Shown one piece after another: positions 321-16,968 of a stretch of DNA of 59,640 nucleotides. Source of the stretch: Kalymmatonema hyalinum WJT4-NPBG1 (GTDB taxonomy: Bacteria > Cyanobacteriota > Cyanobacteriia > Cyanobacteriales > Nostocaceae). The position numbers and the translations under genes were made by a program. The notes under the pieces were generated by a model that worked only from the letters and a program-made list of their open reading frames with translations, was not told where the DNA came from and did not search any database. The stretch lies in contig JAHHIB010000055.1 in NCBI GenBank assembly GCA_019359075.1, forward strand, positions 1 to 59,640, written 5' to 3'. Each line of letters opens with the position of its first letter. The stretch's first letter is position 1.

Positions 321-929
321 CTATTGAACAGAGGTAGGCGTTTTCAGGATAACACCGTCAATTAAGCCGTAAGCCTTTGCTTCTTCAGCACTCATGAAAA
401 AGTCTCGGTCTGAATCACGTTGAATCTTCTCTAAGGGTTGACCTGTATGAGTAGCTAATATCTTGTTGATAGTGTCTTTGGTACGCAAAAGTTCTCTAGC
501 TGCAACCTCAATATCACTAGCCACTCCCTGAGCGCCTCCTGAAGGTTGATGAATCATAATCCGAGCATTTGGCAAAGCATATCTTTTGCTCTTAGTACCT
601 GAAGAAAGCAAGAATGCTCCCATTGAAGCCGCAATACCGACACAAACAGTACAAACATCTGAACGAATTTGGTTCATAGTATCGTAAATAGCCATTCCCG
701 CTGTTACTGAACCTCCTGGACTATTGATGTACAAAAAGATATCTCGCTCTGGGTCATCAGCATCTAGAAACAACAATTGCGCAACTATCAAATTAGCTGT
801 ATCATCTGTAACTTCACTCTTCAAAAAGACAATCCGCTCTGCAAGTAAACGCGAATAAATATCAAAGGCTCTGTCTCCTTTGTCTGATGGTTGAATAACC
901 ATTGGGATGCTGGATTGATGATTGCTCAT
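321..929 (-). CDS. clpP: ATP-dependent Clp protease proteolytic subunit ClpP
   Basis: This is the serine peptidase that forms the barrel-shaped ClpP chamber and degrades proteins unfolded by ClpX or ClpC in the cytoplasm. The catalytic Ser sits in the GIAASMGAF motif, the His in MIHQPSGG and the Asp in the C-terminal AYGLID region, so the triad is complete. Length (202 residues) is normal for the family. The chosen ATG at 929 has a GGAG ribosome site about ten bases upstream; an ATG 15 bases further upstream (944) overlaps that site and is less likely. Cyanobacteria carry several ClpP paralogues; which one this is cannot be told here. It is monocistronic as far as visible, with a small cupin gene next upstream on the same strand. 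Confidence 0.95.
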
Positions 930-1073
930 AGTGTTTGTCTCCAAAAAATAGACAATTGTAAATTAACCTAACTGCCCAAAGAGCTAGGATATTTTCAAAA
1001 AGGTTTTCTTGACCTAGTTTCAACTAGGAAGCTACCCAAAAACTCCCATCTTACCAAGACGAATAGTCAATAT

Positions 1074-1364
1074 TTAGACAGATGTGATTGCTCTATGGGG
1101 ACCATTTTTAGTGTTAGCAGGTGTACACCAAAATGTTGCTGTTGTGCATTCACGCCCCCCTGTTTCGATAGTTCCATTAAGAACATAGACATACTCGTCA
1201 CAGGGATGAAAATGAACTGGAATTACTGTACCAGCAGCCATTTGTAATTTATGGATTGAGCCTTGTGGTACCCCTTCAGCCAATGACAGTATTTTTGTTC
1301 CTGGAAGTTGCTCAATGTCTTCCCACTGTCCAGTGTGAGTGTCAACAAAATTTTGTTCAGTCAT
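1074..1364 (-). CDS. Small cupin-domain protein
   Basis: A 96-residue single-domain cupin. The first cupin motif is visible as HFHPCDEYVYVLNGTIE: two His, the downstream Glu and the conserved Gly. The second motif is weaker, with a His in the last ten residues (GPHRAITSV). The protein ends directly after that strand, so the fold is minimal. Similar small cupins of the ChrR type bind a metal and act as sensors or small-molecule enzymes; no substrate can be assigned. It is on the same strand as clpP, with 144 bp between its end and the clpP start, so co-transcription is possible but unproven. Confidence 0.8.
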   Translation of the reverse strand: MTEQNFVDTHTGQWEDIEQLPGTKILSLAEGVPQGSIHKLQMAAGTVIPVHFHPCDEYVYVLNGTIETGGRECTTATFWCTPANTKNGPHRAITSV

Positions 1365-1389
1365 ATTTAATTGCTCAAGTTTGAAACTT

Positions 1390-1519
1390 ATATCATGTCC
1401 GGTTATATAACCGTGGGGAAGTTCGTAGTGAGGACTTTAGTCCTCTTTACCGACAAAGCAAGGACTCGTGTCCTTACTACAAATAAGTTTTATTCTGGGC
1501 AATTAAGCGAACATGATAT
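1390..1519. repeat. Nested inverted repeat (palindromic intergenic element)
   Basis: The outer arms ATATCATGT (from 1390) and ACATGATAT (to 1519) are inverted copies. Inside, GTAGTGAGGAC (1425-1435) pairs with GTCCTTACTAC (1470-1480), with a further short hairpin between. The whole 130 bp could fold into a long imperfect cruciform or RNA hairpin. It lies just upstream of the cupin gene. It resembles the small palindromic elements common in filamentous cyanobacteria; no coding sequence is visible in it. Confidence 0.65.
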
Positions 1520-1690
1520 TATCTGACCAAAGTTTGTAACGCTGCAAATATCGACTTGTCACAAGCAACAGAATCGGCAACCTCTGTAGCCTTGAGTTTT
1601 AAGTTTGCCAAGTATGCAATGCTGTTTGAGAACGCCAAAAAAAGCCGTTGTTCTCTGGCTTTGTTCATTTGTCCGTGCAACACGAAATCA

Positions 1691-2299
1691 CTATTTTCCT
1701 TGCGAGAGAACTTGCCTCAATGTGCATTCAAGTTTGTACTCCCACCTGCCAGAGAAATAGGAAGTAAGAATCATGCTAGTCGATGCCTGAAATTCTATAC
1801 CTCTCGACCAACAACTAGGCGATTGATGTTCGCCACTCGTTCTTATTAAAGTTCTTGTCTGCACGGCAGGTGCTGATTTTATCTGTACCAATGACTTCCT
1901 ATATAGAGCGTTTGTTGTCGTTTGCTCATGCATAGACTCACCTTGCCACGGTTCTCGCGATCCAGTCATGGCAGTTTCTAGAATTCTATGTTGTAAGCGC
2001 AACTGGGTACCGCCTTCTTGTGATTCCAAAATCCAGGTGACAATGGAAGGCTGAGGCATGAATTTATCCTGCCAAGTGTAGGAAAGCCGTTTTGGCTCTT
2101 CTAGTTCAATGACTTCGCAATCAATACTTTCATCGAGTCCTGGCAGTGTAGACTCCTGAAATCGGAATTTGTGTCCTACACGCGGCTCAAAGTCATTTTC
2201 CATCAACCATGCAGCTAAGGCGCGACGGTTAGTGAGTACCTGCCAAACCCGTTGCGGTGGATATGGATAGAAAACTTCCTTGTTCAAGTTTCGGAGCAT
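1691..2299 (-). CDS. SRPBCC (AHSA1/START-like) protein with odd C-terminal half
   Basis: The first ~130 residues match the activator-of-Hsp90-like SRPBCC fold: an N-terminal YPYPPQRVWQVLTN segment, then the LSYTWQD and GGTQLRLQHR strands, forming a hydrophobic ligand cavity. Family members usually end around 150-160 residues, after a C-terminal helix with a GGW.YKL-type motif. Here a GRWEYKLE motif appears only near residue 185, after ~45 residues of Ser- and Thr-rich sequence that does not look like the family. An insertion or compensated frameshift is possible. The gene starts inside the 3' end of the upstream arsR-type gene (16-bp overlap), so the two are translationally coupled. The pairing of ArsR with SRPBCC proteins is common; ligand unknown. 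Confidence 0.75.
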   Translation of the reverse strand: MLRNLNKEVFYPYPPQRVWQVLTNRRALAAWLMENDFEPRVGHKFRFQESTLPGLDESIDCEVIELEEPKRLSYTWQDKFMPQPSIVTWILESQEGGTQLRLQHRILETAMTGSREPWQGESMHEQTTTNALYRKSLVQIKSAPAVQTRTLIRTSGEHQSPSCWSRGIEFQASTSMILTSYFSGRWEYKLECTLRQVLSQGK

Positions 2300-2646
2300 G
2301 AATCTTCCTCCAGATAGTTGCTTAGGGCATCCAGTTTTTCTTGCCAGAACTGTTCGTAATGTGCAATCCAGTCAGAAATCTGCTTGAGAGGCTCCGGGTT
2401 CAGGCGATATAACCGCTGTCGCCCTGCTTTTCGCATTTGTACTAATCCTACTTCACAAAGCACTTGCAAGTGCTGAGAAATCGCTGGCAAGCTCATGGCG
2501 AAAGGCTCAGCCAACTGTTTAACTGGTTGCTCACCAGTACGTAACTGATCCAATATCGCCCGTCGTGTTGGATCTGCGATCGCTGCAAAAACATCAGCAC
2601 TGGCAGCTAGTCTACTCATAGCGATTTTGGATTGTGGATGTTCCAT
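2284..2646 (-). CDS. ArsR-family transcriptional regulator
   Basis: A 120-residue winged-helix repressor. The segment FAAIADPTRRAILDQL followed by AMSLPAISQHLQVL is the classic ArsR/SdpR helix-turn-helix, and GLVQMRKAGRQRLYRL is the wing. There is no Cys-rich metal site of the ArsR/SmtB type (no ELCVCDL motif), so this is more likely an SdpR/YgaV-like member that does not sense arsenite. It overlaps the SRPBCC gene downstream, forming a two-gene operon. A perfect palindrome 127 bp upstream (2773-2786) is a plausible operator for autoregulation. The ATG at 2646 and an internal ATG at codon 10 are both possible starts. Confidence 0.9.
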   Translation of the reverse strand: MEHPQSKIAMSRLAASADVFAAIADPTRRAILDQLRTGEQPVKQLAEPFAMSLPAISQHLQVLCEVGLVQMRKAGRQRLYRLNPEPLKQISDWIAHYEQFWQEKLDALSNYLEEDSCSET

Positions 2647-2772
2647 TTTGGAGCGGGTAAACCAGGCTAATAGGCATTGTCAGCCCATCGCTGCATCGCT
2701 TGAAAAAGCAAAAATCTGATCATTGGCGTCATCCCAATACTTAAGCGAATACTTAACTCTTTTTATAATAGA

Positions 2773-2786
2773 TAAGCAATTGCTTA
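2773..2786. promoter_or_regulatory. Palindromic operator candidate for the ArsR/SRPBCC operon
   Basis: TAAGCAATTGCTTA is a perfect 14-bp palindrome upstream of the ArsR-type gene, in the AT-rich stretch where its promoter should lie. Related half-sites (CTTAAGCGAATACTTAA) occur at about 2741-2757. ArsR-family dimers bind such inverted repeats. The assignment rests on position and symmetry only. The rest of 2647-3149 holds no recognisable gene. Confidence 0.5.
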
Positions 2787-3149
2787 AATGTCAATACGCG
2801 TTGTTAAGAAATGTTACGATAACACGTTATTTAGCGTAATGCTAACCTACTGGAACTGAGTAATAAGTAGATGTGGGAGTACAAGCCCAGAATACCTAAC
2901 TTTTGTCGGCTGCATAAGTGCCATGAGTAGTTCCCTATAAAGTTATGTTGCTTATGTCAATAAAAGCCACCGCTCGTAATTAACTGGACTATTTCCGGAG
3001 GAATTGAGGAATTAATGATTGTGATTATGAAATCTGGCACTCACGGGGGCGGGAATTGCGCGGTTCAGTCTGCAATGCCGTTGACACATAATACCGCAGA
3101 AAAGTATGTGCCAACAGGACGTGGAGATTGTTCCTATACCAGTGTTTGG

Positions 3150-3968
3150 ATGGCACAGAAGACAGTGAAAAAAATTCTGGTGATTGAAAATAGAGCAGAA
3201 ACCCGAAAACTTTTTCTAAAATGCCTGGAAGCGGAAGGTTTCTACACTATAGGTGCTGAAAACGGTCTTATCGGTGTCCAGCGAGCACAGGAAGAGTTAC
3301 CCGATTTGGTAATCAGCGAAATTACGATGCCAATACTCGATGGTTACGGCGTCCTGACTACGCTGCGCCAAAACCCAGCCACAGCGATTATCCCCTTTAT
3401 TTTTGTCACTGGCAAAGTGACTCAGGCTGACATCCGCAAAGGTATGGAACTGGGAGCAGATGACTATCTCACTAAACCCTGTACACCAGAGGAATTACTC
3501 AGGGCGATAAGAGCCCGATTGGAAAGACAAGCCACCCTCCGGCAATGGTACGCTGCAAACTCACAATCAGTCCGAGAACCACCATGTGCTGAAATTATAA
3601 GACTGACTGCCCCTGAGTGCATCTTTCCGTCTGACCCTCAGTTAAGTGAGGTCTTTGGCTTCATCGAGGCAAATTATCACCGACCGATTACCCTAAGTGA
3701 CGTGGCTCTTGCTGTTGATTACTCTCCAAGTTACCTCACTAACCTGGTGCGACGTCAAACGGGACAAACTGTGCAAACCTGGATTATTGAGCGGCGCATG
3801 GCAGCAGCACGTTCCTTGCTCTTGGAAACCGATGAGAGAGTGGAGGAGATTGCTGCTAAGGTAGGCTATCAATCTATGGTTCATTTCTTCCGCCAATTTA
3901 GAAGACATCACGGGACAACTCCCCAAGCTTGGAGAAAGTTACAGCTCACTCAGCACAAACAACAGTAA
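3150..3968 (+). CDS. Receiver-AraC response regulator, copy 1 (degenerate phospho-site)
   Basis: An N-terminal CheY-like receiver (about residues 8-125) joined to a C-terminal AraC/XylS double helix-turn-helix (about 165-265). The receiver keeps the Thr (FVTG) and Lys (LTKPC) of the switch. The usual phospho-acceptor Asp is Glu 57 (VISEITMP), and the acidic pair is Glu-Asn (VIENR) rather than Glu/Asp-Asp. It is therefore unlikely to be phosphorylated in the ordinary way and may be locked or ligand-controlled. The ATG at 3150 or the GTG at 3165 fits the start, judged by alignment to copy 2; a longer frame from 3015 adds 45 residues without family similarity. The C-terminus (GTTPQAWRKLQ) is complete. 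No partner kinase lies nearby. Copy 2 follows 470 bp downstream. Confidence 0.85.
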   Translation: MAQKTVKKILVIENRAETRKLFLKCLEAEGFYTIGAENGLIGVQRAQEELPDLVISEITMPILDGYGVLTTLRQNPATAIIPFIFVTGKVTQADIRKGMELGADDYLTKPCTPEELLRAIRARLERQATLRQWYAANSQSVREPPCAEIIRLTAPECIFPSDPQLSEVFGFIEANYHRPITLSDVALAVDYSPSYLTNLVRRQTGQTVQTWIIERRMAAARSLLLETDERVEEIAAKVGYQSMVHFFRQFRRHHGTTPQAWRKLQLTQHKQQ

Positions 3969-4438
3969 TTCTCCTTTTCAAACAATGTATACATTTTTAT
4001 TGCCTGTTTGGCTGCTTATAATATCAAGCAAGAATAAGTATCTATCTAAAGAATTAAAAAAGAGCGTCTTTGAAAACAACTAGTGTTGTATTATTAATTT
4101 CATCTTGACTCACATCTTGCACCTGGCCGTATAAACCGAGGCTAGGTAAAAAGCAGTGCGATAAAGTTACATTACTTTTTTGGACTTTTCGCGCTAAATT
4201 AAGGGCTTTGAGTTTGATGCTGAGTGATGAAACAACATCAATTTTTTTTGGTACGATATGTCAGTTGAGCGATCCAGTCTAGAACTCTGCCGTTGGCAGA
4301 TCACACTGTATAAAAGTATAGGCAAGGAGGAAATGGTGATTAGTTTGGCGGGCAAACCAACCAAATCCCTCCTCTACCCTCTACAAATACAAAACTCCAG
4401 TCCTGTAAATGACCAGTGTTTAAATGGCAGAGGAGACA
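3969..4438. other. Intergenic region between the two receiver-AraC genes
   Basis: 470 bp with no convincing gene. The last ~100 bp (about 4330-4420) contain CCAACCAAATCCCTCC-like sequence and lead into the AGGAGA ribosome site of copy 2. A short frame starting at 4258 runs out of frame into copy 2 and looks like chance. No terminator with a clear U-tract was found. Confidence 0.5.
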
Positions 4439-5227
4439 ATGAAAAAAATTCTGGTGATTGAAGATGGGGCACAAACCCGAAAACTTTTTCTAGAATGGCT
4501 CAAAGCAGAAGGTTTCTACACTATAGGTGCCCAAAACGGTCTGATTGGTGTCCAGCGAGCACACGAAGAGTTACCCGATTTGATAATTAGCGAAATTATC
4601 ATGCCAAAACTCGATGGTTACAGTGTCCTGACCACGCTGCGCGAAAACTCAGCCACAGCGATTATCCCCTTTATTTTTGTTACTGCCAAATCGACTCGAT
4701 CTGACATCCGCAAAGGCATGGAACTGGGAGCAGATGACTATCTCACTAAGCCCTGTATGCTAGAGGAATTACTCAAGGCGATCGCTGGCTGCTTGGAAAA
4801 ACGAGCCTCTTTCCAAAAGTGGTACGCTGCACAGTTCCAGCCAATTTTAGAACCACCGCAAGCTGGCATTAAAAGAGCGGCTGACTTTCAGTGGATTTTT
4901 CCGTCTGACCCTCAGTTGACTAAGGTCTTCCACCTGATCGAGGCAAATTATCACCAATCGCTTACCCTTAGCGACGTGGCTGTTGCTGTTGGTTACTCTC
5001 CAAGTTACCTCACTAACCTGGTGCGACGCCAAACGGGACAAACTGTGCAAACCTGGATTATTGAGCGGCGGATGGTAGCAGCACGTTCCTTGCTCTTGGA
5101 AACCGATGAGAGAGTGGAGGAGATTGCTGCTAAGGTAGGCTACCAATGTATGGTTCATTTGTTCCGCCAATTTAGAAGAGATCACGGGACAACTACTTCC
5201 GCTTCATTGACGCAATGCCCACGCTGA
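4439..5227 (+). CDS. Receiver-AraC response regulator, copy 2 (altered C-terminus)
   Basis: A tandem paralogue of the gene at 3150. The ATG at 4439 is chosen because AGAGGAGA lies about seven bases upstream and the protein then opens MKKILVIED. The acidic pair is intact (Glu 8, Asp 9), as are Thr 82 and Lys 104, but the phospho-acceptor position is Glu 52 (IISEIIMP), as in copy 1. The AraC domain covers about 155-251. In its last ~200 bp the DNA is nearly identical to copy 1, far closer than in the receiver part. Identity stops at base ~5195: after FRRDHGTT the frame reads TSASLTQCPR instead of the normal AraC C-terminus. The second helix-turn-helix is still present, so activity cannot be excluded. 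The break coincides with the start of an unrelated gene remnant. Confidence 0.8.
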   Translation: MKKILVIEDGAQTRKLFLEWLKAEGFYTIGAQNGLIGVQRAHEELPDLIISEIIMPKLDGYSVLTTLRENSATAIIPFIFVTAKSTRSDIRKGMELGADDYLTKPCMLEELLKAIAGCLEKRASFQKWYAAQFQPILEPPQAGIKRAADFQWIFPSDPQLTKVFHLIEANYHQSLTLSDVAVAVGYSPSYLTNLVRRQTGQTVQTWIIERRMVAARSLLLETDERVEEIAAKVGYQCMVHLFRQFRRDHGTTTSASLTQCPR

Positions 5228-5436
5228 AGAAGCCAGGGACTGTCATGCTCTGGACTAACTGCAAACATCCATATTACGACCGTAACGTTACTAATGTTCC
5301 AGACTATATCTCCAGTGGTCGTGAGCGCACAGATCGTAAATGGGTCGGCGATATTTGGAAATATTTTGATGCAATCCACCGGATCGAAACAATGAACTTG
5401 AAAGCCATTTTGGAGTATCGCTTTGCTAATGGCTAG
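5195..5436 (+). pseudogene. 3' remnant of an unidentified gene, possibly a methyltransferase
   Basis: From ~5197 the frame reads FRFIDAMPTLKKPGTVMLW and continues 80 codons to a stop at 5436 with protein-like composition, but without a start, ribosome site or complete domain. The KPGTVMLWTN stretch resembles a late strand of SAM-dependent methyltransferases; this is a weak guess. The frame opens exactly where the AraC copy 2 loses homology to copy 1, so two genes appear to have been joined here. Its last 15 codons (from 5391) reappear at 8176-8221, upstream of the chimeric gene. An ATG at 5215 could start a 73-residue peptide, but no ribosome site supports it. Confidence 0.55.
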
Positions 5437-5853
5437 AGCATTCGTGACAAGTTAAGGTCGCATCCAGTTTGTCAATAGATAATGATACTTAAATTAGCGA
5501 TGAGCCTGTGGTGGAAAACGTACAATTTGGGGAAAGTTTGTAACGTAATCTTAAGCAAACCACCTCTCCGTACCCTGAAAAGTCACATTCAAGGTTAGTT
5601 TGATACCTAAATTTGCCTCAGTATTAAGCATAATTGTTTATTGACAAATGCAATTTTATCTGAAATTGTCTCGAATGAGCTGTGAGTTACCAGTTTCTTT
5701 AGAGTTCTAATCTCACACAATGTTTTCCATTAGACCATTTAACAGTTTTGTTCTGTAATCAGAGGAAAAGAGCCTTATGTATGATGTAATCGTGGTCGGC
5801 GCTCGCTGTGCGGGTTCGCCCACAGCCATGCTACTTGCCCGCAAGGGCTATCG
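5391..5853 (+). repeat. Copy 1 of a duplicated segment (remnant 3' end, leader, monooxygenase start)
   Basis: Two blocks here recur in the same order at 8176-8371: 5391-5436 (end of the remnant gene) and 5679-5853 (AGCTGTGAGTTACC leader through the first 26 codons of the FAD monooxygenase). In copy 1 the blocks are separated by 242 bp (5437-5678) with no recognisable gene; in copy 2 they abut. Base matches are high but not perfect, so the duplication is not brand new. The ribosome site AGAGGAAAAGAG of the monooxygenase lies at about 5761-5772. Confidence 0.8.
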
Positions 5854-6991
5854 GGTGTTGCTAGTGGACAAAACCACTTTTCCGAGTGACACTGTTTCAG
5901 CCCACTATATTCAACAGTCTGGCGTTGTTCAACTCAAGCGCTGGGGTCTCCTGGACAAACTCGTGGATTCGGGCTGCCCACCGATCCAAAGGGCTACTTT
6001 CAACTTCTTTGGTTCCGTTGTTTTGACTGCTTGGGGACTGTCGGTGGAGGGCGTAGCAGAGGGGTACGGTCCACGGCGCACCGTAATCGACAAGATTCTC
6101 GTTGACGCTGCTGTAGAAGCTGGGGTCGAGCTACGGGAAGGCTTCGTATTGCAGGAGGTCTGCATGGATGGCGATCGCGTCACTGGCATCCGTGGTCGGA
6201 CGAGTAGCAGATCGACCGTAACCGAGAAGGCTCGCATCGTCATCGGATCAGATGGGAAGAACTCGCTGGTTGCTCGTAGTGTCCGTGCCCCTGAGTACAA
6301 CACAATACCTTCCCTCGGCTGCTATTACTACAGCTACTGGAGTGGCGTTCCTATGGAAGGAGCGGAACTTTACACTCTAGACAATCGAATAGTCGTCGCT
6401 TGTCCTACAAACGACAACCTTCTGAGCATATTTATTGGATGGCCTAACAGGGAATTTCACAAAGTTCGCACTGATATCGAAGGGAACTTCCTAGCAACGC
6501 TCGATCTTATTCCCGAACTAGCTGAGCGTGTCCGGAGTGGCAAACGCGAAGAACCATACTATGGTACAGGTCACGTTCCAAACTTCTTCCGTAAGCCATA
6601 CGGGAATGGCTGGGCGCTAGTAGGCGACGCTGGATGCCACAAAGACCCAATTCTAGCCCAGGGGATGAAGGACGCTTTCTTGAGCGCCGAGCTTTTAGCA
6701 AACGCAATTGATATCGGTTTGTCTGGACGTAAACCACTTAATGAAGCGCTCGCCGAGTACGAACGGCAGCGCAACGAAGCCATAATGCCGCAATATAAAC
6801 GCGCCTGCGAACGTGCTACCTTTGAGCCAGCGTCTCCAGAGGCAATGCGGTTACTAGCTGCTCTTCAAGGGAACCAGAGGGAGATAGATCGCTTCTGGGC
6901 TGTCGAAGCGGGTACTGTGCCAATTCAAGACTTTTATTCACCTGAGAACATTCAGCGCATCATGGGTGCAGCCGCAGTTGGTGTTGGGTAA
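5777..6991 (+). CDS. FAD-dependent monooxygenase/oxidoreductase
   Basis: A 404-residue group A flavoprotein-type enzyme. The N-terminal Rossmann FAD site is the variant MYDVIVVGARCAGSPTA with the following LVDK acidic strand end. The second FAD motif is WALVGDAGCHKDP at about residue 280. The family (geranylgeranyl reductase-like / PHBH-like) hydroxylates or reduces aromatic and isoprenoid substrates using NAD(P)H and O2. The start at 5777 follows AGAGGAAAAGAG at good spacing. An O-methyltransferase lies 148 bp downstream on the same strand, which suggests hydroxylation followed by methylation of a small molecule, possibly aromatic; the substrate is unknown. Its first 26 codons are duplicated at 8302. 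Confidence 0.85.
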   Translation: MYDVIVVGARCAGSPTAMLLARKGYRVLLVDKTTFPSDTVSAHYIQQSGVVQLKRWGLLDKLVDSGCPPIQRATFNFFGSVVLTAWGLSVEGVAEGYGPRRTVIDKILVDAAVEAGVELREGFVLQEVCMDGDRVTGIRGRTSSRSTVTEKARIVIGSDGKNSLVARSVRAPEYNTIPSLGCYYYSYWSGVPMEGAELYTLDNRIVVACPTNDNLLSIFIGWPNREFHKVRTDIEGNFLATLDLIPELAERVRSGKREEPYYGTGHVPNFFRKPYGNGWALVGDAGCHKDPILAQGMKDAFLSAELLANAIDIGLSGRKPLNEALAEYERQRNEAIMPQYKRACERATFEPASPEAMRLLAALQGNQREIDRFWAVEAGTVPIQDFYSPENIQRIMGAAAVGVG

Positions 6992-7139: not shown

Positions 7140-8159
7140 ATGAATACAACCGAATCGTCGCCATCAATGGTAATGCTTCAGATGATAAGCGCTACCTGGC
7201 TTTCACGGTTAATTTACGCGGCAGCAAAGCTTGGTATCGCCGATCTGCTAAAGGATGGACCGAAGAGTAGCGAAGAGCTTGCGAGTTCCACTGGAATGCA
7301 CGCACCTTCTCTCTACCGAACACTGCGTGCACTCGCTAACTATGGCATATTTAAAGAGGTTAAACCCAATTGCTTTGAAATGACGCCTCTTGCAGAGACT
7401 CTTCAAAGCAGAGTACCCGGCTCAATGCGTAACATGGCGATTACTTGCGGGGAAGAGTATTATTACTACCCATTCGGAAAGATTCTCTACACTCTGCAGA
7501 CTGGTCAACCGGCATTCCATCATTTCCATGGTATGGATCTCTTTGAGTATCTAACGCAGCATCCTGATAACGCCAAGTGTTTTGATGAAGCAATGACCGA
7601 GTATGTATCGCAGATGCACACTTCATTTGCTGCCGTATATGACTTTTCTGGAGTGAAGAAGGTCGTCGACGTGGGTGGCGGTCATGGAACTCTTATGAAG
7701 CACATTCTAAAAGCCAACCCAACAGTGACCGGAATTCTCTTTGACAGACCATCTGTGATCGAGGGGTCAAAGAAAAACATCGAAGCTGCCGGGCTTTCGG
7801 ATCGGTGTGAGGTTGTTGGTGGAGACTTCTTTGAATCGGTGCCAAGCGGCGGTGACATCTATATTCTCTCATCAATCATCCACGGAAGGAATAACGAAGA
7901 CAGCGCTAGTATCCTCAGGAATTGCCATCGTGCAATGGTGGATAATGGCAGACTTTTGCTTGGCGAAGTGGTCATCCCTACAGGAAATGAGCCATTCTTT
8001 GGGAAGATACACGATATCAACCTTATGATAGCAGCTGAAGGTGGCGGGGAACGAACCGAGGCAGAATTCCTAAAGCTGTTTGAGATGTCTGGCTTCAAGC
8101 TAACAAGGATTATCCCGACACAGTCCCTTGGGAGCATAGTTGAGGGAGTACGCATTTAA
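7140..8159 (+). CDS. SAM-dependent O-methyltransferase (COMT-like family 2)
   Basis: A complete 339-residue enzyme of the plant-COMT/hydroxyneurosporene methyltransferase family. An N-terminal winged-helix dimerisation domain (about 15-90; LASSTGMHAPSLYRTLRAL) precedes the catalytic Rossmann domain, with SAM motif I as VVDVGGGHG (about 180). The usual catalytic HDWDDE motif is degenerate here: IIHGRNNED. The base His is kept, but the following Asp-Trp is lost, so activity may be altered. The C-terminal ERTEAEFLKLFEMSGF segment is typical. It probably acts with the upstream monooxygenase. A related core, with an intact HDWDDE, lies in the chimera immediately downstream. Confidence 0.9.
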   Translation: MNTTESSPSMVMLQMISATWLSRLIYAAAKLGIADLLKDGPKSSEELASSTGMHAPSLYRTLRALANYGIFKEVKPNCFEMTPLAETLQSRVPGSMRNMAITCGEEYYYYPFGKILYTLQTGQPAFHHFHGMDLFEYLTQHPDNAKCFDEAMTEYVSQMHTSFAAVYDFSGVKKVVDVGGGHGTLMKHILKANPTVTGILFDRPSVIEGSKKNIEAAGLSDRCEVVGGDFFESVPSGGDIYILSSIIHGRNNEDSASILRNCHRAMVDNGRLLLGEVVIPTGNEPFFGKIHDINLMIAAEGGGERTEAEFLKLFEMSGFKLTRIIPTQSLGSIVEGVRI

Positions 8160-8175
8160 TAGACCTCAAAGAAGC

Positions 8176-8371
8176 AATGAACTTGAAAGCTATTTTGGAA
8201 TATCGCTTTGCTAATGGCTAGCTGTGAGTTACCAAATTCTTTAGAGTTCCAATCTCACGCAATCTTTTCATTAGAGGATGTCTGAGGAGAAATCAGGTTT
8301 TATGTATGACGTCATTGTCGTCGGTGCTCGCTGTGCTGGTTCGCCGACAGCCATGTTACTCGCCCGTAAGA
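8176..8371 (+). repeat. Copy 2 of the duplicated segment
   Basis: Positions 8176-8221 match 5391-5436 (ATGAACTTGAAAGC onward, ending in the same TAG). From 8221 the sequence matches 5679 onward (GCTGTGAGTTACC), through ATGTATGACGTCAT to CTCGCCCGTAAG at about 8370. Inside the leader a ~25 bp piece present in copy 1 (around 5737-5760) is missing. At 8371 homology to the monooxygenase gene ends within codon 26 and methyltransferase sequence begins in frame. This is direct evidence of segmental duplication followed by deletion. Confidence 0.85.
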
Positions 8372-9867
8372 TCGCTGATTTATTGAAAAATGGCCCTTTA
8401 AGTTGCGACAAATTGGCTTCCTCTACTGGAACACACGCCCGTTCCCTTTATCGAGTGATGCGTGCGCTTGCCAGTGTGGGTGTCTTTGCGGAAAAAGAGC
8501 AGGGCGATTTTACACTTACACCTCTGGCTGCCTGTCTCATGAGCGATGTGCCTGACTCGATTCGCGCTGCAGCAATTATGTTGGGTGAGGAACATTATCG
8601 AGCTTGGGGAGACATCCTGCATAGTATACGCACTGGAACTAGCTCCTTTGAGCATTTATATGGCATGGGTTTGTTCCAGTATTATGCGCAAAACCCGGAA
8701 CCCGCAAAAATCTTCCAAAAGGCTATGACGAGTGTTTCTGCAATAGACAATACTGCGGTCACTCTTGGTTATGACTTTTCAAACATTCAAAAGTTGGTTG
8801 ATGTCGGTGGTGGACACGGAAGTCTAATTGCCTCTATCCTCAAATCCAACCCTAATATGAAAGGGGTTTTGTTTGATCAACTTTCCGTGATTGAAGGTGC
8901 GAAACATTTGTTAGACAACCAAGGAGTATCCTCACGCTGCGAACTCATTGGTGGAGATTTCTTCCAATCTGTGCCAGCAGGGGGCGATGCCTATATTCTT
9001 AGACACATCCTTCACGATTGGGATGATGAGAGAGCGATCGCTATCCTCAAGCACTGTCACTTTCCAACAGGCGACGCATTTCAATTTAATGTTGTTAGTG
9101 TACCTCTTTCTAAGATAGATCTTCCGATAACAAATGCAATAAGTAGCAGCGAATATGCTACTCCTTTTACCGCTACTGTTGCTTTCATTCCACCAGGAGG
9201 TGGACCTACGCCCCATGTCCACTGGTGGGAGGATGAATGGTGGTGGGTTCTTAAGGGTAAGTTGGATTGGTATATAGGCGATAATGTCTATGATATAGGA
9301 GAGATACCCGGAGTAAATGCCCCTCTTGAAGACAACTTCAGTCGCGTTCAACTTAGTACCGGAGAACTGTCCTATAGTAATGACAAACGCTTGCATGGAT
9401 ATAGAAACAACACGGATGAAACATCTATATTGATACACTTTTGGCGTCGTCTTGAGAATACTGATGGGGGGATTGAACAGTTTTTTTTAGATGACGAAAT
9501 TGGTAAATTGGTAGAAAGTCCATCTGATGCTTTGTTACCTAACAACTTTTTTGACCTAGAGAGGCTCGCAAAATGGCAAGAAAAATTCCCCGAATACAGA
9601 GCAACGATAAGTTCTTCTTTTGATGAATATCTGACGAAAAATGCTCTTGTTGAAGGTCTTGATCCACAAAAATTGAAGGACAACAAAGCTGAAGAGTTGA
9701 TCGCTTTGCTGAGACAGATTCCACAGTTCAGACAGACTCCACAGACTCGAGCGGTACCCGAACCTTCTGTTACATTTGGACTCTTCGCATTTGGTGGTTT
9801 GTTTGCGATTTCAACTTTAAAGCGGAAAAATAAACGTATCCGTTTGGGTATTGTCAACTTAAACTAG
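8302..9867 (+). CDS. Chimeric open frame: monooxygenase N-terminus / O-methyltransferase core / cupin / PEP-CTERM tail
   Basis: One uninterrupted frame from four sources. Residues 1-23 (from ATG 8302) copy the FAD monooxygenase start (MYDVIVVGARCAGSPTA). Then IADLLKNGPLS to ILKHCH (about 24-253) is an O-methyltransferase lacking its first ~30 residues and last third, but with VDVGGGHG and HDWDDE intact. At HFPTGDAFQF it switches to a cupin-like domain (HVHWWEDEWWWVLKGK at about 302-317). The end is a PEP-CTERM sorting signal: VPEPS, a hydrophobic helix, then KRKNKR. The start at 8278 adds eight residues; the one at 8302 matches the parent gene, and GAGGAGA lies upstream. Neither flavin nor methyltransferase folds are complete, so only the cupin could fold as usual. 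The PEP-CTERM helix would need a Sec signal, which is absent. It may be a decaying fusion or a new gene. Confidence 0.75.
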   Translation: MYDVIVVGARCAGSPTAMLLARKIADLLKNGPLSCDKLASSTGTHARSLYRVMRALASVGVFAEKEQGDFTLTPLAACLMSDVPDSIRAAAIMLGEEHYRAWGDILHSIRTGTSSFEHLYGMGLFQYYAQNPEPAKIFQKAMTSVSAIDNTAVTLGYDFSNIQKLVDVGGGHGSLIASILKSNPNMKGVLFDQLSVIEGAKHLLDNQGVSSRCELIGGDFFQSVPAGGDAYILRHILHDWDDERAIAILKHCHFPTGDAFQFNVVSVPLSKIDLPITNAISSSEYATPFTATVAFIPPGGGPTPHVHWWEDEWWWVLKGKLDWYIGDNVYDIGEIPGVNAPLEDNFSRVQLSTGELSYSNDKRLHGYRNNTDETSILIHFWRRLENTDGGIEQFFLDDEIGKLVESPSDALLPNNFFDLERLAKWQEKFPEYRATISSSFDEYLTKNALVEGLDPQKLKDNKAEELIALLRQIPQFRQTPQTRAVPEPSVTFGLFAFGGLFAISTLKRKNKRIRLGIVNLN

Positions 9868-10357: not shown

Positions 10358-11974
10358 ATGGCGAGATCGGCGTTGATGGCATCATTACGGCGAGCTTACA
10401 AAATCACCAAGGCATCTGTTGAAACAGGAATTCCTGCGGACGAAATCGTTGATATTCTCCACCAAAAGACTACTCGTCGTCGCCTGATCTATGGGGGTTT
10501 GGGATTAGCAAGTGCCATCAGTGCGGTGACATGGCATGGTGGAGCTGATTCTGCTGCATTTGCCACAATTCCCAAAGTATTGGTAGTCGGTGCGGGAATT
10601 GCTGGACTCGTCGCGGCTTATCGTCTTTCTCAAGCTGGAGTGCCTGTAGATATTATCGAAGCAAGAAATCGCGTTGGCGGTCGCATATATACATTACAAA
10701 ATGTTGCTGGTACTTCTATACCTGTAGACTTGGGTGGAGAATTTATCGACACAAATCATACCACCTTACGCTCTTTGGCGCAGGAATTAGGTTTGCAAAT
10801 TGCAGATTTGTATACTGCTGACAAGGATTTGATACAAGGTACATCGTATTTTCAAGGACGTAAAATTTCAGAAAAAGAAATCCTACAGTGGTTCACTCCA
10901 CTGGTGCAGAAGATAAAGCAGGATTTAGCTGCTCTTGGCAAGACACCTGTAACCTATGGCACACGCAATCAAGTTGCGATTCAGTTGGATAATACCTCTA
11001 TCACTCAGTACTTGAACGACGGGCAAATTCACCCAATTCTTAGTGAGATAATACAAGTCGCTTACACTGGTTTATACGGTCGAGAAGCGAGCGAGCAGTC
11101 TAGTCTGAATATGCTGCTTTTTATTGGCACAGATCCAAGCAGCTTCGAGATTACTGGGGAAAGTGATGAACGTTATCAGATTGTTGGTGGAAATGACCAA
11201 GTCCCTCGTTTATTAGCGCGATTTTTGACAAATTCTATTGAAACAGGGACCGAATTAGAAGCGATCACAACTCGAAGCGATCGCACTTACCGAGTCAGTT
11301 TACGTTCTGGTAATCGCTCGTTTGAACGCACATATGAGCGAATTTTGCTGGCGTTACCATTTACTACTCTGCGTCAAGTCTCGTTAAATGTCGATTTGCC
11401 AGCAGTGAAAAAAAATGCGATCGCCCAATTAGGTTATGGTAACAATGCCAAGTTAATTACTGCTTATCAAGAACGCATATGGCGCACACGCCATAACTCA
11501 ACTGCATTTGTCTCTACTGACTTAGACTTTGCAAGCATCTGGGAAGCTTCTCGTTATCAACCAGGTGCAAGTGGTGTACTCACCAATTTTACTGGCGGTC
11601 AAAAAAGTTTACCTCTAGGGCTACGTTCGCCTGAATCTCAAGCTCAAAAACTGCTATCACAATTAGAAAATATTTTCCCAGGAATGAGTAGTGTACGCCA
11701 GGGTCAACCCATCTGTGCTTATTGGCGCAGAGAACCGTATACACAAGGCTCCTATGCCTGCTATCTTGTTGGACAGTGGACAACAATTGCAGGAGCTGAA
11801 CAAGAACAGGTGGGTAAGCTGTTTTTTGCTGGCGAACATTGCTCGCAAAAGTTCCAAGGTTATATGGAAGGTGGTTGTAGAACGGGTGAAATGGCTGCTG
11901 TCCAAATTCTACGTTCTTTGGGTTTGAAAAAGAGCGCTGCTCAACTAGAAAAGCGAATCACTGCTGATCAATAA
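10358..11974 (+). CDS. Flavin amine oxidase, Tat-exported
   Basis: A 538-residue FAD amine oxidase of the monoamine oxidase / L-amino-acid oxidase family. The N-terminal Tat-like signal is TTRRRLIYGGLGLASAIS (about 38-55), preceded by an unusually long ~37-residue leader. The dinucleotide site is VLVVGAGIAGLVAAYRL (from about 74), followed by RVGGRIYT. The C-terminal FAGEHCSQKFQGYMEGG motif binds the flavin. It oxidises a primary amine or amino acid to imine with release of H2O2, probably in the periplasm. A secreted tyrosinase follows 1.1 kb downstream, so both may act on extracytoplasmic aromatic amines; this is inference. No strong ribosome site is seen at 10358, and GTG or ATG starts slightly downstream are possible. 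Confidence 0.85.
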   Translation: MARSALMASLRRAYKITKASVETGIPADEIVDILHQKTTRRRLIYGGLGLASAISAVTWHGGADSAAFATIPKVLVVGAGIAGLVAAYRLSQAGVPVDIIEARNRVGGRIYTLQNVAGTSIPVDLGGEFIDTNHTTLRSLAQELGLQIADLYTADKDLIQGTSYFQGRKISEKEILQWFTPLVQKIKQDLAALGKTPVTYGTRNQVAIQLDNTSITQYLNDGQIHPILSEIIQVAYTGLYGREASEQSSLNMLLFIGTDPSSFEITGESDERYQIVGGNDQVPRLLARFLTNSIETGTELEAITTRSDRTYRVSLRSGNRSFERTYERILLALPFTTLRQVSLNVDLPAVKKNAIAQLGYGNNAKLITAYQERIWRTRHNSTAFVSTDLDFASIWEASRYQPGASGVLTNFTGGQKSLPLGLRSPESQAQKLLSQLENIFPGMSSVRQGQPICAYWRREPYTQGSYACYLVGQWTTIAGAEQEQVGKLFFAGEHCSQKFQGYMEGGCRTGEMAAVQILRSLGLKKSAAQLEKRITADQ

Positions 11975-13066: not shown

Positions 13067-14386
13067 ATGAAAATTTTCCCCAAAACTATCAAAACAGTCA
13101 TCATTGCTAGTATAGTTGCTGCTCTAGTCGTGTTTGGAAGTCCCGCACTTTCCCATAATGCTCAGCATCAACAGGCATCAAATGCGATCGTCAACGGCAG
13201 TTCTAATACCAAGCTGCCAGTATTTTATAACGCTGATTCTACTCTTGCTCCTGCAAACAGCAAGGGTCTTATTAGTAAAAGGATTCCTCCTTATAGAGCA
13301 CGTGTTAGAAGGAACGTTGTTGACCTGACCTCATCTGAGAAACAAGCATTCGTTCATGCTGTGCAGACATTAAAACATACATTCCCAGAAGGTAGCAATG
13401 TCAGTATCTATGACCAGTTTGTTGCAGTCCATCTGGGAGCAATGGGTTTAATGTACGATAGTGCCCAAGGTCCAGCAGCGGGGCATGATGGTGCTCATGA
13501 AAGCGCTCTATTACTACCGTGGCATCGTGAGTTGGTATACCGATTTGAAAAAGCCTTACAATCAGTAGACCCGAATGTGACGATTCCCTACTGGGATTGG
13601 ACAGATCCTAAGGCGTTAGAAGTGATCTTTCAAGATGACTTTTTGGGACCAAATGGTCAAGGAGTCAATCTCAACATCCCCCAATTAGGTAATGTTCAAG
13701 GAGGACCTGTTGTGTCTGGTCCTTTTACAAAAGCCAATGGATGGGTTATCAACCCAGACTTACATACTAAGCCCTCGGGAAAATCATTGGGCGACACACT
13801 CTTACGCTTTATGCAATCGCCTCCTACAAATAGTTACCCTCTTCCTAAAGAAGATGTAGAGCAAGTCCTTGCTATCGACGACTATGGAACTTTTCGTCTA
13901 GCTTTAGAAGGATTTATCAAACTGGATGGTTCTAGTCAACAACCAACGCCTGGAGTGTTTCAACATAACTACTTTCATAGCTTCGTCGGTGGGGCTACTT
14001 TTGACCCTGCGGTAGGTCGTCCCGAAGCTCTTGGCACGATGGCTGACCTTGCTTGTTCTATCAACGATCCAGTATTTTGGCTGATTCATTCTAATGTAGA
14101 TCGCCTTTGGGCTGAATGGCAGGCAAACGGACATGAAGGTAGCAATTATTATCCTGCATCAGGTGGACATTACGGAGAAAATCTCAACGATCGATTGTGG
14201 CCCTGGGATGGCGGTCAGTCCACTCCAGCGAATTGGACTCCAGGGGATTTGTTATCCTTACTACCTGCTTTTTCAGCAGATGATATTGTCACACCAAGAG
14301 ACACTTTGGATTTGAGAAAGTATGGTTACAGCTATGACACCGTTATTAGGGCAAATGTCATCAAGCTGATACCAAAAGCAAAGTAA
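13067..14386 (+). CDS. Secreted tyrosinase family copper protein
   Basis: A type 3 binuclear copper oxidase of 439 residues. The Sec signal MKIFPKTIKTVIIASIVAAL ends near residue 30. CuA ligands are probably His 122 (VAVHLG), His 144 (GAHES) and His 153 (LLPWHRE), the last followed by YWDW. The CuB site contains HNYFHS and, further on, SINDPVFWLIHSNVDRLW. Such enzymes hydroxylate monophenols and oxidise o-diphenols to quinones. Tyrosinases of this type occur near pigment genes in cyanobacteria, but no scytonemin genes are present here. An exported location matches the Tat amine oxidase upstream. The start at 13067 gives the signal peptide directly. Confidence 0.9.
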   Translation: MKIFPKTIKTVIIASIVAALVVFGSPALSHNAQHQQASNAIVNGSSNTKLPVFYNADSTLAPANSKGLISKRIPPYRARVRRNVVDLTSSEKQAFVHAVQTLKHTFPEGSNVSIYDQFVAVHLGAMGLMYDSAQGPAAGHDGAHESALLLPWHRELVYRFEKALQSVDPNVTIPYWDWTDPKALEVIFQDDFLGPNGQGVNLNIPQLGNVQGGPVVSGPFTKANGWVINPDLHTKPSGKSLGDTLLRFMQSPPTNSYPLPKEDVEQVLAIDDYGTFRLALEGFIKLDGSSQQPTPGVFQHNYFHSFVGGATFDPAVGRPEALGTMADLACSINDPVFWLIHSNVDRLWAEWQANGHEGSNYYPASGGHYGENLNDRLWPWDGGQSTPANWTPGDLLSLLPAFSADDIVTPRDTLDLRKYGYSYDTVIRANVIKLIPKAK

Positions 14387-15512: not shown

Positions 15513-15533
15513 CTGCCGCCTAAAGGCAGGCAG
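15513..15533 (-). repeat. Right-end hairpin of the TnpB element
   Basis: On the minus strand CTGCCTGCCTTTAGGCGGCAG folds into a short stem with one bulged base, followed by AGTG and TCAA. IS200/IS605 elements end in a subterminal hairpin with a TCAA-type cleavage tetranucleotide just outside. The tnpB stop codon lies in the loop (15520-15522), so the end of the gene and the element end overlap. In related elements this region is also transcribed as the guide-bearing omega (right-end) RNA; the guide would then begin at ~15504 and run toward lower coordinates. Confidence 0.65.
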
Positions 15534-16968
15534 ATTCTAAAGAGATTTCGCTCTTTATATCCCTATTACTAGGGTTCTCTGGCTCACCACGTTTGCACTT
15601 TGTGCGTGGTGATTTTGTCCTAGAGCGTTTAGAACCAAATGGTTCAGGTTTTGCGGAGTCCCCGCATACCATACTAGCTATATTATTCATAGCTAGTTTT
15701 TTTATGTTTTTTGCAGCATTAATGTCGGCATGAGCCATGTAACCACAAGCAGAACAGATGAATTTCTCCTTGTCACGACTACTCGCATCAATGTGACCAC
15801 AAACATTACATTTTTGAGATGTATATTTAGGGTTTACCTTGACAAAAACCTTTCCTGACTTGACAGCCATGTACTCGATTTTCTGGCTCAATTCACTCCA
15901 ACTAGCGTCAGAAATGCTGCGATTCAAACCTTTCTTTCGGCTCTGTCCGTTAAGTAAAAACCTACCAGTTGTTTCATCCATTTTTACTCGACAGCGCTTA
16001 AGCATACCGGAAACATTTAAGTCTTCTACTCCAATTGCATCAACTCTTCTAGACGCAATTTGGCTTGCTACTTTCCATTGGTAGGCTTGACGCTTGTCAC
16101 TGATTTTCTTATGAAGTTTGCCGACTCGTGCAGCCGCCTTGGTACGATTCTTGCTACCTTTCTGTTTACGACTAATTCTGCGTTGCCTAATCCTTAGGAT
16201 GCGCTTAACTTTTTTATTGGTTGCGAATTTGGGATTTTTAATCTGATGTCCATCGGATAGATGTACAAGTTTTGTAATTCCCATGTCACAACCAACAATA
16301 GACTTGACATCAGCTAAGGCTACAGCAACGTAATCAGGAACGGTCTTATCTTCAATTCTGATAGATACATACCATCCATGTTGACGTTTACGAACTGTTG
16401 CAGCTTTGACTGTAAACCCTTGTGGTATTGGTCTAGAGTTGTAAAATCTCATCCAACCTATCTTAGGTAGATAGATTTTATTCCCTTGAACTTTTACCCC
16501 CATTACATAGGTAAAAGATGAAAAACTTGACCGATTTTTAAACTTCGGGAACCCCCTGCCGCTAAAGAAATTTTCGTAAGCTTTATCTAGCCGTTTAACA
16601 TTTTGTTGCAATACTGTAGAGTCAATTCCAGCATACCAAGGTCTAGCTTTTTTAAGCTCTGGTAACGCTGTAATCTGAATATCTCTAGCATTGCGACGCG
16701 GATTCTTTGCCTTTCCGTCTTTATCTACTTTAGTATCTTTCCACGGTTCACCAGTTGCACCATTCTTGCTAACAAAGCACGTAATAGGACAAGCTTCACT
16801 ATACGTTTTAATATCACAATAATTACCTTGAAGGAACTGCTGATTGTATTGAGCAATTCTATCAGCCGCATACCAATTATATTGACTACGAAGCATATTC
16901 ACCCAATTTTCCATTGTGCTTGATTGGGTGATATTAGGACGTAGTTTGTAAAGATAGTTTGTGAGCAA
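15520..16968 (-). CDS. tnpB: TnpB RNA-guided nuclease of an IS200/IS605-type element
   Basis: A 482-residue TnpB, the ancestor type of Cas12. The RuvC-like catalytic acids are visible: Asp in IVGCDMGITK, Glu in AIGVEDLNV, and Asp in MAHADINAAKN. Between the last two lies a four-Cys zinc ribbon (CNVCGH ... CSACGY). The N-terminus (LYKLRP, FLQGNY) is the usual TnpB wedge region. The C-terminal ~55 residues after NIKKLAMN are rich in Lys, Arg, Ser and Glu; they are probably disordered and overlap the right-end RNA. The start is TTG at 16968, kept because LTNYLYKLRP is conserved; an ATG lies 18 codons inside. No tnpA transposase is present, so movement would need one in trans. All catalytic residues are intact, so it could still cut DNA. 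Confidence 0.9.
   Translation of the reverse strand: MLTNYLYKLRPNITQSSTMENWVNMLRSQYNWYAADRIAQYNQQFLQGNYCDIKTYSEACPITCFVSKNGATGEPWKDTKVDKDGKAKNPRRNARDIQITALPELKKARPWYAGIDSTVLQQNVKRLDKAYENFFSGRGFPKFKNRSSFSSFTYVMGVKVQGNKIYLPKIGWMRFYNSRPIPQGFTVKAATVRKRQHGWYVSIRIEDKTVPDYVAVALADVKSIVGCDMGITKLVHLSDGHQIKNPKFATNKKVKRILRIRQRRISRKQKGSKNRTKAAARVGKLHKKISDKRQAYQWKVASQIASRRVDAIGVEDLNVSGMLKRCRVKMDETTGRFLLNGQSRKKGLNRSISDASWSELSQKIEYMAVKSGKVFVKVNPKYTSQKCNVCGHIDASSRDKEKFICSACGYMAHADINAAKNIKKLAMNNIASMVCGDSAKPEPFGSKRSRTKSPRTKCKRGEPENPSNRDIKSEISLESACL

Follow-up and report, generated by a model that had tools for sequence, protein, structure and literature searches.

A reading frame built from three sources

The stretch of DNA analysed here (the window; 59,640 nucleotides, contig JAHHIB010000055.1 of Kalymmatonema hyalinum WJT4-NPBG1) contains an open reading frame (ORF) on its forward strand that is uninterrupted for 529 codons and joins pieces of three sources: the start of a flavin adenine dinucleotide (FAD) monooxygenase (23 codons), the core of an O-methyltransferase (MT2, 230 codons), and a cupin with a PEP-CTERM tail (Table 1). 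An earlier note on this DNA had described several sources in one open frame of more than 500 codons, and this description holds. The families it named are also recovered, the methyltransferase and the cupin by Pfam and an intact FAD paralogue (FAD1) by PF01494, with PEP-CTERM at the border of its cut-off. The Pfam domains detected in the ORF are Dimerisation (residues 31-89), Methyltransf_2 (110-261) and Cupin_2 (304-341), the joints between the pieces can be located to within a few bases, and the families of the sources are known. The tryptic peptide predicted across the joint between methyltransferase and cupin is HCHFPTGDAFQFNVVSVPLSK. Translation most likely starts at 8302, a start inherited from the FAD gene, rather than at 8278, which gives 521 codons without a stop. 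A Shine-Dalgarno-like GAGGAG sits 12 bases 5' of this start codon, and no sigma-70-like site was detected on the forward strand from 7880 to 8302 by what is a weak test. A structure model of the whole fusion (predicted local distance difference test score, pLDDT, 54; predicted template modelling score, pTM, 0.38) came from a shallow alignment of 13 rows and is too weak to use.

Table 1. Positions of the fused reading frame, its pieces and the features around it.
Feature	Position	Strand	Remarks
Second of two AraC-type response regulators	4424..5227	+	Pfam Response_reg and HTH_18; end replaced from ~5195
geneX 3' remnant, ~81 codons, 5' part missing	5191..5436	+	88% amino acid identity to a 233-residue gene in genome G409
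Repeat, ~241 bases, short inverted ends, copy 1 only	5437..5677	.	between geneX stop and leader
Leader, copy 1	5678..5737	+	
FAD1, intact FAD-dependent monooxygenase, 404 residues, paralogue of the FAD fragment	5777..6991	+	PF01494, 4.1e-18
MT1, intact O-methyltransferase, 339 residues	7140..8159	+	PF00891, profile 9-210 of 210
Joint between DNA after MT1 and geneX tail copy 2	8170..8171	.	match boundaries of locus L149
geneX tail, copy 2	8171..8221	+	48/51 bases identical to 5386-5436
Leader, copy 2	8220..8278	+	match to 5678-5737
Fused ORF	8278..9867	+	likelier start 8302, alternative 8278
Opening 23 codons of FAD2, a second FAD monooxygenase gene	8302..8370	+	23/23 residues identical to FAD1
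O-methyltransferase core MT2, 230 codons	8371..9060	+	77% amino acid identity to a complete gene in genome G026
CucA-like cupin with PEP-CTERM tail, no signal peptide	9061..9864	+	PF07883; PEP at 9757-9765

The earlier note had seen 23-26 codons of FAD1 recur at the start of the ORF. The recurrence is real but 23 codons long, not 26: ORF codons 9-31 encode the same residues as the start of FAD1, and the homology ends at the AAG codon 8368-8370. Bases 8297-8370 and 5772-5845 align without gaps (62/74 identical, 12 differences). Within the coding part there are 10 base changes, all synonymous: nine fall on third codon positions and one on a first position. In a neutral simulation of 10 random changes, the protein was left unchanged in 1 of 200,000 draws. 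Of the 18 synonymous sites of the pair, 10 differ, and the estimated synonymous divergence is about 1. Conservation of this start extends more widely in the family: four homologues with 34-46% identity over the rest of the protein retain 17-19 of its 22-23 residues. This all-synonymous pattern argues that FAD2 was selected as a protein while it diverged, which makes the FAD copies old, and that the truncation behind the fusion came later. The full FAD-binding domain is absent from the fused ORF, in which PF01494 has no match at 0.001; residues 9-65 give a weak match (0.046) to the FixC model.

The second piece, MT2, is incomplete. Its Methyltransf_2 match covers profile positions 1-153 of 210, and it lacks ~32 N-terminal residues (MT1 numbering) and ~75 C-terminal residues (compared with full-length relatives). 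In a tree of 44 sequences it stands beside the G026 gene (support 89/75), apart from MT1. An origin as a local copy of MT1 was rejected on this position and on the 52% identity between the two. Named methyltransferase relatives include Anabaenopsis, Calothrix and Dulcicalothrix. The glycine motif DVGGGHG and the HDWDDE motif are present and aligned with those of relatives; we take the former to bind S-adenosylmethionine (SAM) and the histidine of the latter to be catalytic. Of 38 near-invariant columns the core departs from two, and one of these departures is a gap close to the cut; intact relatives depart from 0-4. Past the cut, 11 columns are lost that at least 95% of the 43 other methyltransferases share, and the C-terminal acidic positions (E of GKLLxVE, column 297; ERT, columns 325-327), conserved to the same degree, are absent. 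In plant caffeic acid O-methyltransferase (COMT) numbering, the lost end presumably holds two of three catalytic positions (equivalents of Glu297 and Glu329), and by analogy with that mechanism the methyltransferase part of the fusion should be inactive. Compared with the G026 gene, nonsynonymous divergence (dN) is 0.145 and synonymous divergence (dS) 0.94. Parsimony assigns 31 synonymous and 34 replacement changes to the MT2 branch and 34 and 17 to its sister (Fisher p = 0.059), a hint of recent relaxed selection on MT2.

The third piece resembles CucA (PDB 2xl7) in sequence (2e-17) and in predicted fold (1.4e-12, TM score 0.53), and a profile of 18 cupin relatives, some of them close to CucA, matches CucA at 5e-94. 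Its model has a pLDDT of 63.4 overall and of 76-90 per ten-residue block over residues 41-130. The PEP-CTERM model TIGR02595 scores 16.2 bits for the C-terminal piece and 15.7 for the whole ORF, with a cut-off of 16; the expected architecture of PEP motif, hydrophobic helix and basic end is present, and the tail has a hydropathy of 1.89. No signal-type start was found in the first 60 residues of the fusion by a rough hydropathy test (top value 1.23, versus 1.97-2.01 in two PEP-CTERM cupin relatives), and by this test the fusion has neither the means of periplasmic export of a CucA-like protein nor the signal peptide of a PEP-CTERM protein. Nineteen rows of relatives of 255-308 residues (one gene twice) begin with a signal-type stretch, judged by eye, and from the PEP-CTERM relatives we infer that the donor cupin had a signal peptide. 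Of the PEP-CTERM proteins in completed genomes, 97% are said to include a SignalP site (excerpt of PMC1569441), and sorting is thought to come after export and signal-peptide removal (excerpts of PMC1569441 and PMC12188702). Because no signal peptide precedes the cupin, the PEP-CTERM tail should stay idle. In an excerpt of PMC4192464, MncA and CucA are described as having the same metal ligands and different metals owing to the location of folding; by analogy, a CucA-type cupin that folds in the cytosol could take up a different metal.

The full FAD-methyltransferase-cupin chain was found in its own genome only, among the matches listed from 388 genomes of the order and in 3 genomes of the genus and 58 genome-contig loci. 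It is thus not conserved across lineages as a functional fusion gene would be, and the same architecture in many distant genomes, which the earlier note had named as a possible refutation, did not appear. The fusion as query matches 166 of the 388 genomes, and all matches listed outside its own genome cover the methyltransferase part except one in genome G250; in the 58 loci no match extends past residue 318. The G250 match crosses the boundary between methyltransferase and cupin (query 228-466) and was rejected as a second fusion, as the protein, a 545-residue cupin with GGxGxD repeats, has no methyltransferase. The cupin part alone has matches in 61 of the 388 genomes, its own included, and the best of the others is 42% identical. 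Literature searches on comparable fusions or pseudogenes and on cupins with PEP-CTERM in cyanobacteria returned nothing close and no match, respectively. Separately, locus L041 of genome G274 holds three tandem CucA-like cupin genes (426-3101) with signal-type starts and PEP-CTERM-like ends, as judged by eye.

Repeated modules and a probably ruined neighbourhood

Upstream of both FAD starts lie the end of a gene that we call geneX and a leader. The earlier note had reported that a remnant tail, the leader and the FAD start are repeated, and they are: beside the FAD and leader matches given above, the two tails agree at 48 of 51 bases, where the best matches in five mononucleotide shuffles of the region reach 29-32. 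The remnant gene that it placed at 5391 does recur by its end in copy 2, but it is part of the longer remnant 5191-5436. Elsewhere geneX is intact as a gene of 223-233 residues. No other match was found in the window's own genome (E <= 0.001) and none in two congeners, and it was rejected as a member of a known family, with no Pfam match at 0.001 and no NCBIfam match at 1e-5. At the related locus L149, the match to MT1 stops at 8170 and that to the geneX tail starts at 8171; the MT1 region (7142-8170) is 87% identical in DNA to genome G462. Parts of the ~241-base repeat of copy 1 match many genomes of the family, and the repeat is absent from copy 2 and from six aligned related loci. This repeat is MITE-like (miniature inverted-repeat transposable element).

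Tail and leader together are identical at 91 of 99 positions (92%) between copies 1 and 2 and at 89 of 99 (90%) between copy 2 and another genus (G409); when the window copies are compared with six loci from other genera, the likeness is 71-90%. Both window copies read CAATG at a site that is CAAGG or CAAGA in the six other loci. The proposal of a local duplication therefore stands in part: tail, leader and FAD start do repeat, but MT2 lies outside the duplicated segment and is no duplicate of MT1, the FAD copies are old, and the copies of tail and leader are hardly more alike than copy 2 and another genus. The leader of ~60 bases, with TGTGAG...CTCACA, follows the geneX stop in the window copies and in L149, L150 and L152, that is, in several genera and before unrelated genes; it is possibly a regulatory site.

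Further breaks lie close by. The second AraC-type response regulator (4424-5194) passes straight into geneX tail sequence in a different reading frame, as seen against the first regulator and L152, and within 4 kb there are at least four abnormal joints (~5195, 8170/8171, 8370/8371 and ~9060), two of them in the fusion. The two regulators stand in tandem (3015-3968 and 4424-5227); both are 76-78% identical in DNA to the G409 regulator, and the second is truncated.

Among 217 genomes of the family, geneX and the leader occur in at least five others: G409, G462 (twice), G474, G437 and G485. In four of these genomes, at five loci, geneX has a second ScyB-type dehydrogenase nearby that scores above the NF035922 cut-off; in G485 none was found near geneX, and the contig ends close by. 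Loci L149, L150 and L152 (G462:C20, G474:C123 and G409:C9) also carry a ScyA-like thiamine diphosphate (ThDP)-dependent acetolactate-synthase-like enzyme and one like ketoacyl-acyl carrier protein synthase III (KAS III). For L152 the ORFs were scanned against the family library, the enzymes of L149 and L150 were named by resemblance, and L151 and L158 were recognised by ScyB and geneX only. By eye, L150 also has an aromatic-amino-acid-lyase-like gene and a coenzyme A (CoA) ligase. The leader is followed by MT1 in G462:C20, by a cupin-PEP-CTERM gene in G474, G437, G462:C265 and G485, and in G409 by a UbiE-like methyltransferase (by eye) and then a cupin-PEP-CTERM gene. The window retains regulators, geneX tail and accessory genes but no core genes, scyA and scyB included: no ScyB match was found on its contig, and the single high-scoring ScyB of the genome, over the family cut-off, lies on contig C4, with no second one found. 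The surroundings thus resemble the remains of a second scytonemin-like (ScyB/ScyA-type) cluster. Such a second cluster (ScyB, ScyA-like, KAS III-like, geneX), with variable tailoring genes, is seen in other genomes of the family, and a literature search for a second scytonemin-like cluster with a ketosynthase found none.

The FAD gene has another background. At 1e-40 the intact gene is found in its own genome only among the 217 genomes of the family, and at 1e-30 just one genome besides its own has it among 292 of the phylum, an absence that is not strict, as the survey scored 6-8 candidates per genome. Forty-two plasmid records match it, all below 60% identity, 21 of them from Streptomyces and the best from Phyllobacterium (47.6%). 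With the gene so rare in family and phylum and its relatives on Streptomyces and other plasmids, a cyanobacterial origin was rejected; it was probably acquired from elsewhere.

On the 3' side of the fusion lie a flavin amine oxidase (10358-11974) and a tyrosinase-domain protein (13067-14386). The gene at 15520-16968 presumably encodes a TnpB/OrfB-like protein of a transposon, with a zinc motif of four cysteines. The scytonemin cluster of Nostoc includes a response regulator and a tyrosinase, the latter in Nostoc punctiforme (excerpt of PMC2726228), PEP-CTERM proteins are said to belong to it (excerpt of PMC12188702), and gene gain and loss in it have been described (excerpt of PMC6939163).

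Origin and fate of the fused frame

A gene remnant is a likelier reading of the fused ORF than a functional enzyme of four parts. We consider it probable that it is a young, still-open, in-frame deletion relic of a decaying natural-product cluster: decay is favoured by the loss of the last quarter of the methyltransferase, by the absence of a signal peptide and by the further broken joints in the neighbourhood. The earlier note had left the choice between gene birth and a frame not yet decayed; the latter is favoured, and gene birth is less likely than a young relic. From the pieces, joints, synonymous pattern and missing parts described above we reconstruct an order of events, with deletion as the mechanism and loss of function as the outcome. 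A module of geneX tail, leader and FAD gene would have been present twice, beside two older, different methyltransferase genes, and both FAD genes would have been long maintained by selection. A deletion, of ~1.4 kb provided that copies 1 and 2 had the same layout, would then have fused FAD2 after its codon 23 to MT2 at about codon 33, and a second one would have fused MT2, shortly past HDWDDE, to the interior of a CucA-like PEP-CTERM cupin gene, each in frame. The product, if made, would begin at the FAD start codon and remain in the cytosol, where its cupin might fold and bind metal.

Several observations weigh against a relic. About 25 random substitutions are expected to introduce a stop in 521 codons and none is present, so either the frame is recent or it has been maintained; the two inner joints preserve the frame, with a chance of 1 in 9; and the cupin piece keeps the His-His-Glu-His metal-ligand positions (H52, H54, E59, H112). 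The G250 protein, its nearest cupin relative by identity, and five other long relatives have no obvious signal peptide; these six also show no PEP-CTERM tail in the ends seen. The 10 differences at 18 synonymous sites of the FAD pair stand against 8 in 99 positions of tail and leader (Fisher 1.2e-5), a gap that one simple duplication fails to explain unless the leader is constrained. There is no close relative by which to date the joints, and the main weakness is that a single assembly underlies both their age and their existence in the living cell.

Either the leader is constrained, or the FAD copies and the leader copies differ in history. The latter would be the case if copy 2 arose not by local duplication but from a second, diverged version of the cluster, by recombination or transfer, matching copy 1 in geneX tail and leader only, with the core then lost and the fusion formed as above. 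We hold this as a tentative alternative. It accommodates a synonymous divergence of the FAD pair that exceeds that of the leader, and G462 does have two such clusters, one with MT1 and one with a cupin-PEP-CTERM gene after the leader. The closeness of copy 2 to G409, where a cupin-PEP-CTERM gene likewise lies downstream, points the same way, but the cupin of the fusion is just 34% identical to that of G409. Moreover, copies 1 and 2 are mutually nearest and share CAATG, and the abutting joint at 8170/8171 is the expected trace of a tandem duplication.

It is unlikely that the chimera is a translated and selected new gene, for example a cytosolic CucA-type metal cupin on a dimerisation and SAM-binding platform derived from the methyltransferase. 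The open codons, the two in-frame joints, the start at 8302 with its GAGGAG, the kept cupin ligands and the conserved MT2 core would fit such a gene. The truncated methyltransferase, a PEP-CTERM tail without signal peptide, the occurrence of the chain in one genome among those searched, the plainly out-of-frame joint of regulator and geneX next to it and the lack of a promoter-like site just 5' (weak test) do not; the low pLDDT of the whole-chain model, given its shallow alignment, adds little. Quite unlikely is the more specific case of a newborn selected gene in which a CucA-type copper cupin would have been relocated to the cytosol by loss of its signal peptide, on a truncated SAM methyltransferase and with a flavoenzyme start. 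An assembler artefact at 8370 or 9060 is very unlikely: the genome is a draft (8.4 Mb, 174 contigs, no second assembly of the species seen), but 8176-9867 matches just 5391-5436 and 5678-5845 elsewhere in it (E <= 0.001), so that no long repeat lies at 9060, and the FAD copies differ at 12 of 74 bases and further abnormal joints lie nearby.

As a probable relic, the ORF offers a snapshot of a chimeric frame before decay or fixation. An annotation pipeline could label it a 529-residue 'methyltransferase/cupin' enzyme, probably without such chemistry. Were it a newborn gene, it would be a natural relocation experiment, as the metal choice of CucA/MncA cupins depends on the place of folding. The loci behind the fusion also indicate a second scytonemin-like cluster in other genomes of the family.

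Relation to known systems

The cupin part is like CucA (Sll1785) of Synechocystis, a periplasmic copper cupin, in sequence, fold and His-His-Glu-His positions; unlike CucA, the fusion has FAD and methyltransferase pieces at the position of the signal peptide. Among COMT-like O-methyltransferases (PF00891; PDB 6c5b and MmcR, 3gwz), residues 31-262 align to 6c5b at 3.5e-68 over the SAM-binding stretch and the HDWDD motif, whereas MT2 is without the first ~32 and last ~75 residues of this family. FAD1 resembles group A FAD monooxygenases and flavin-dependent halogenase-like oxygenases, matching the halogenase PDB 3e1t (3.3e-21) besides PF01494, and just the first 23 of its 404 residues are retained in the fused frame. 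The related loci resemble the scytonemin (scy) cluster in carrying ScyB and a ScyA-like enzyme, to which the G409 locus adds an AraC-type regulator; they differ from it by the added KAS III-like gene and geneX, and the window by the loss of scyA and scyB.
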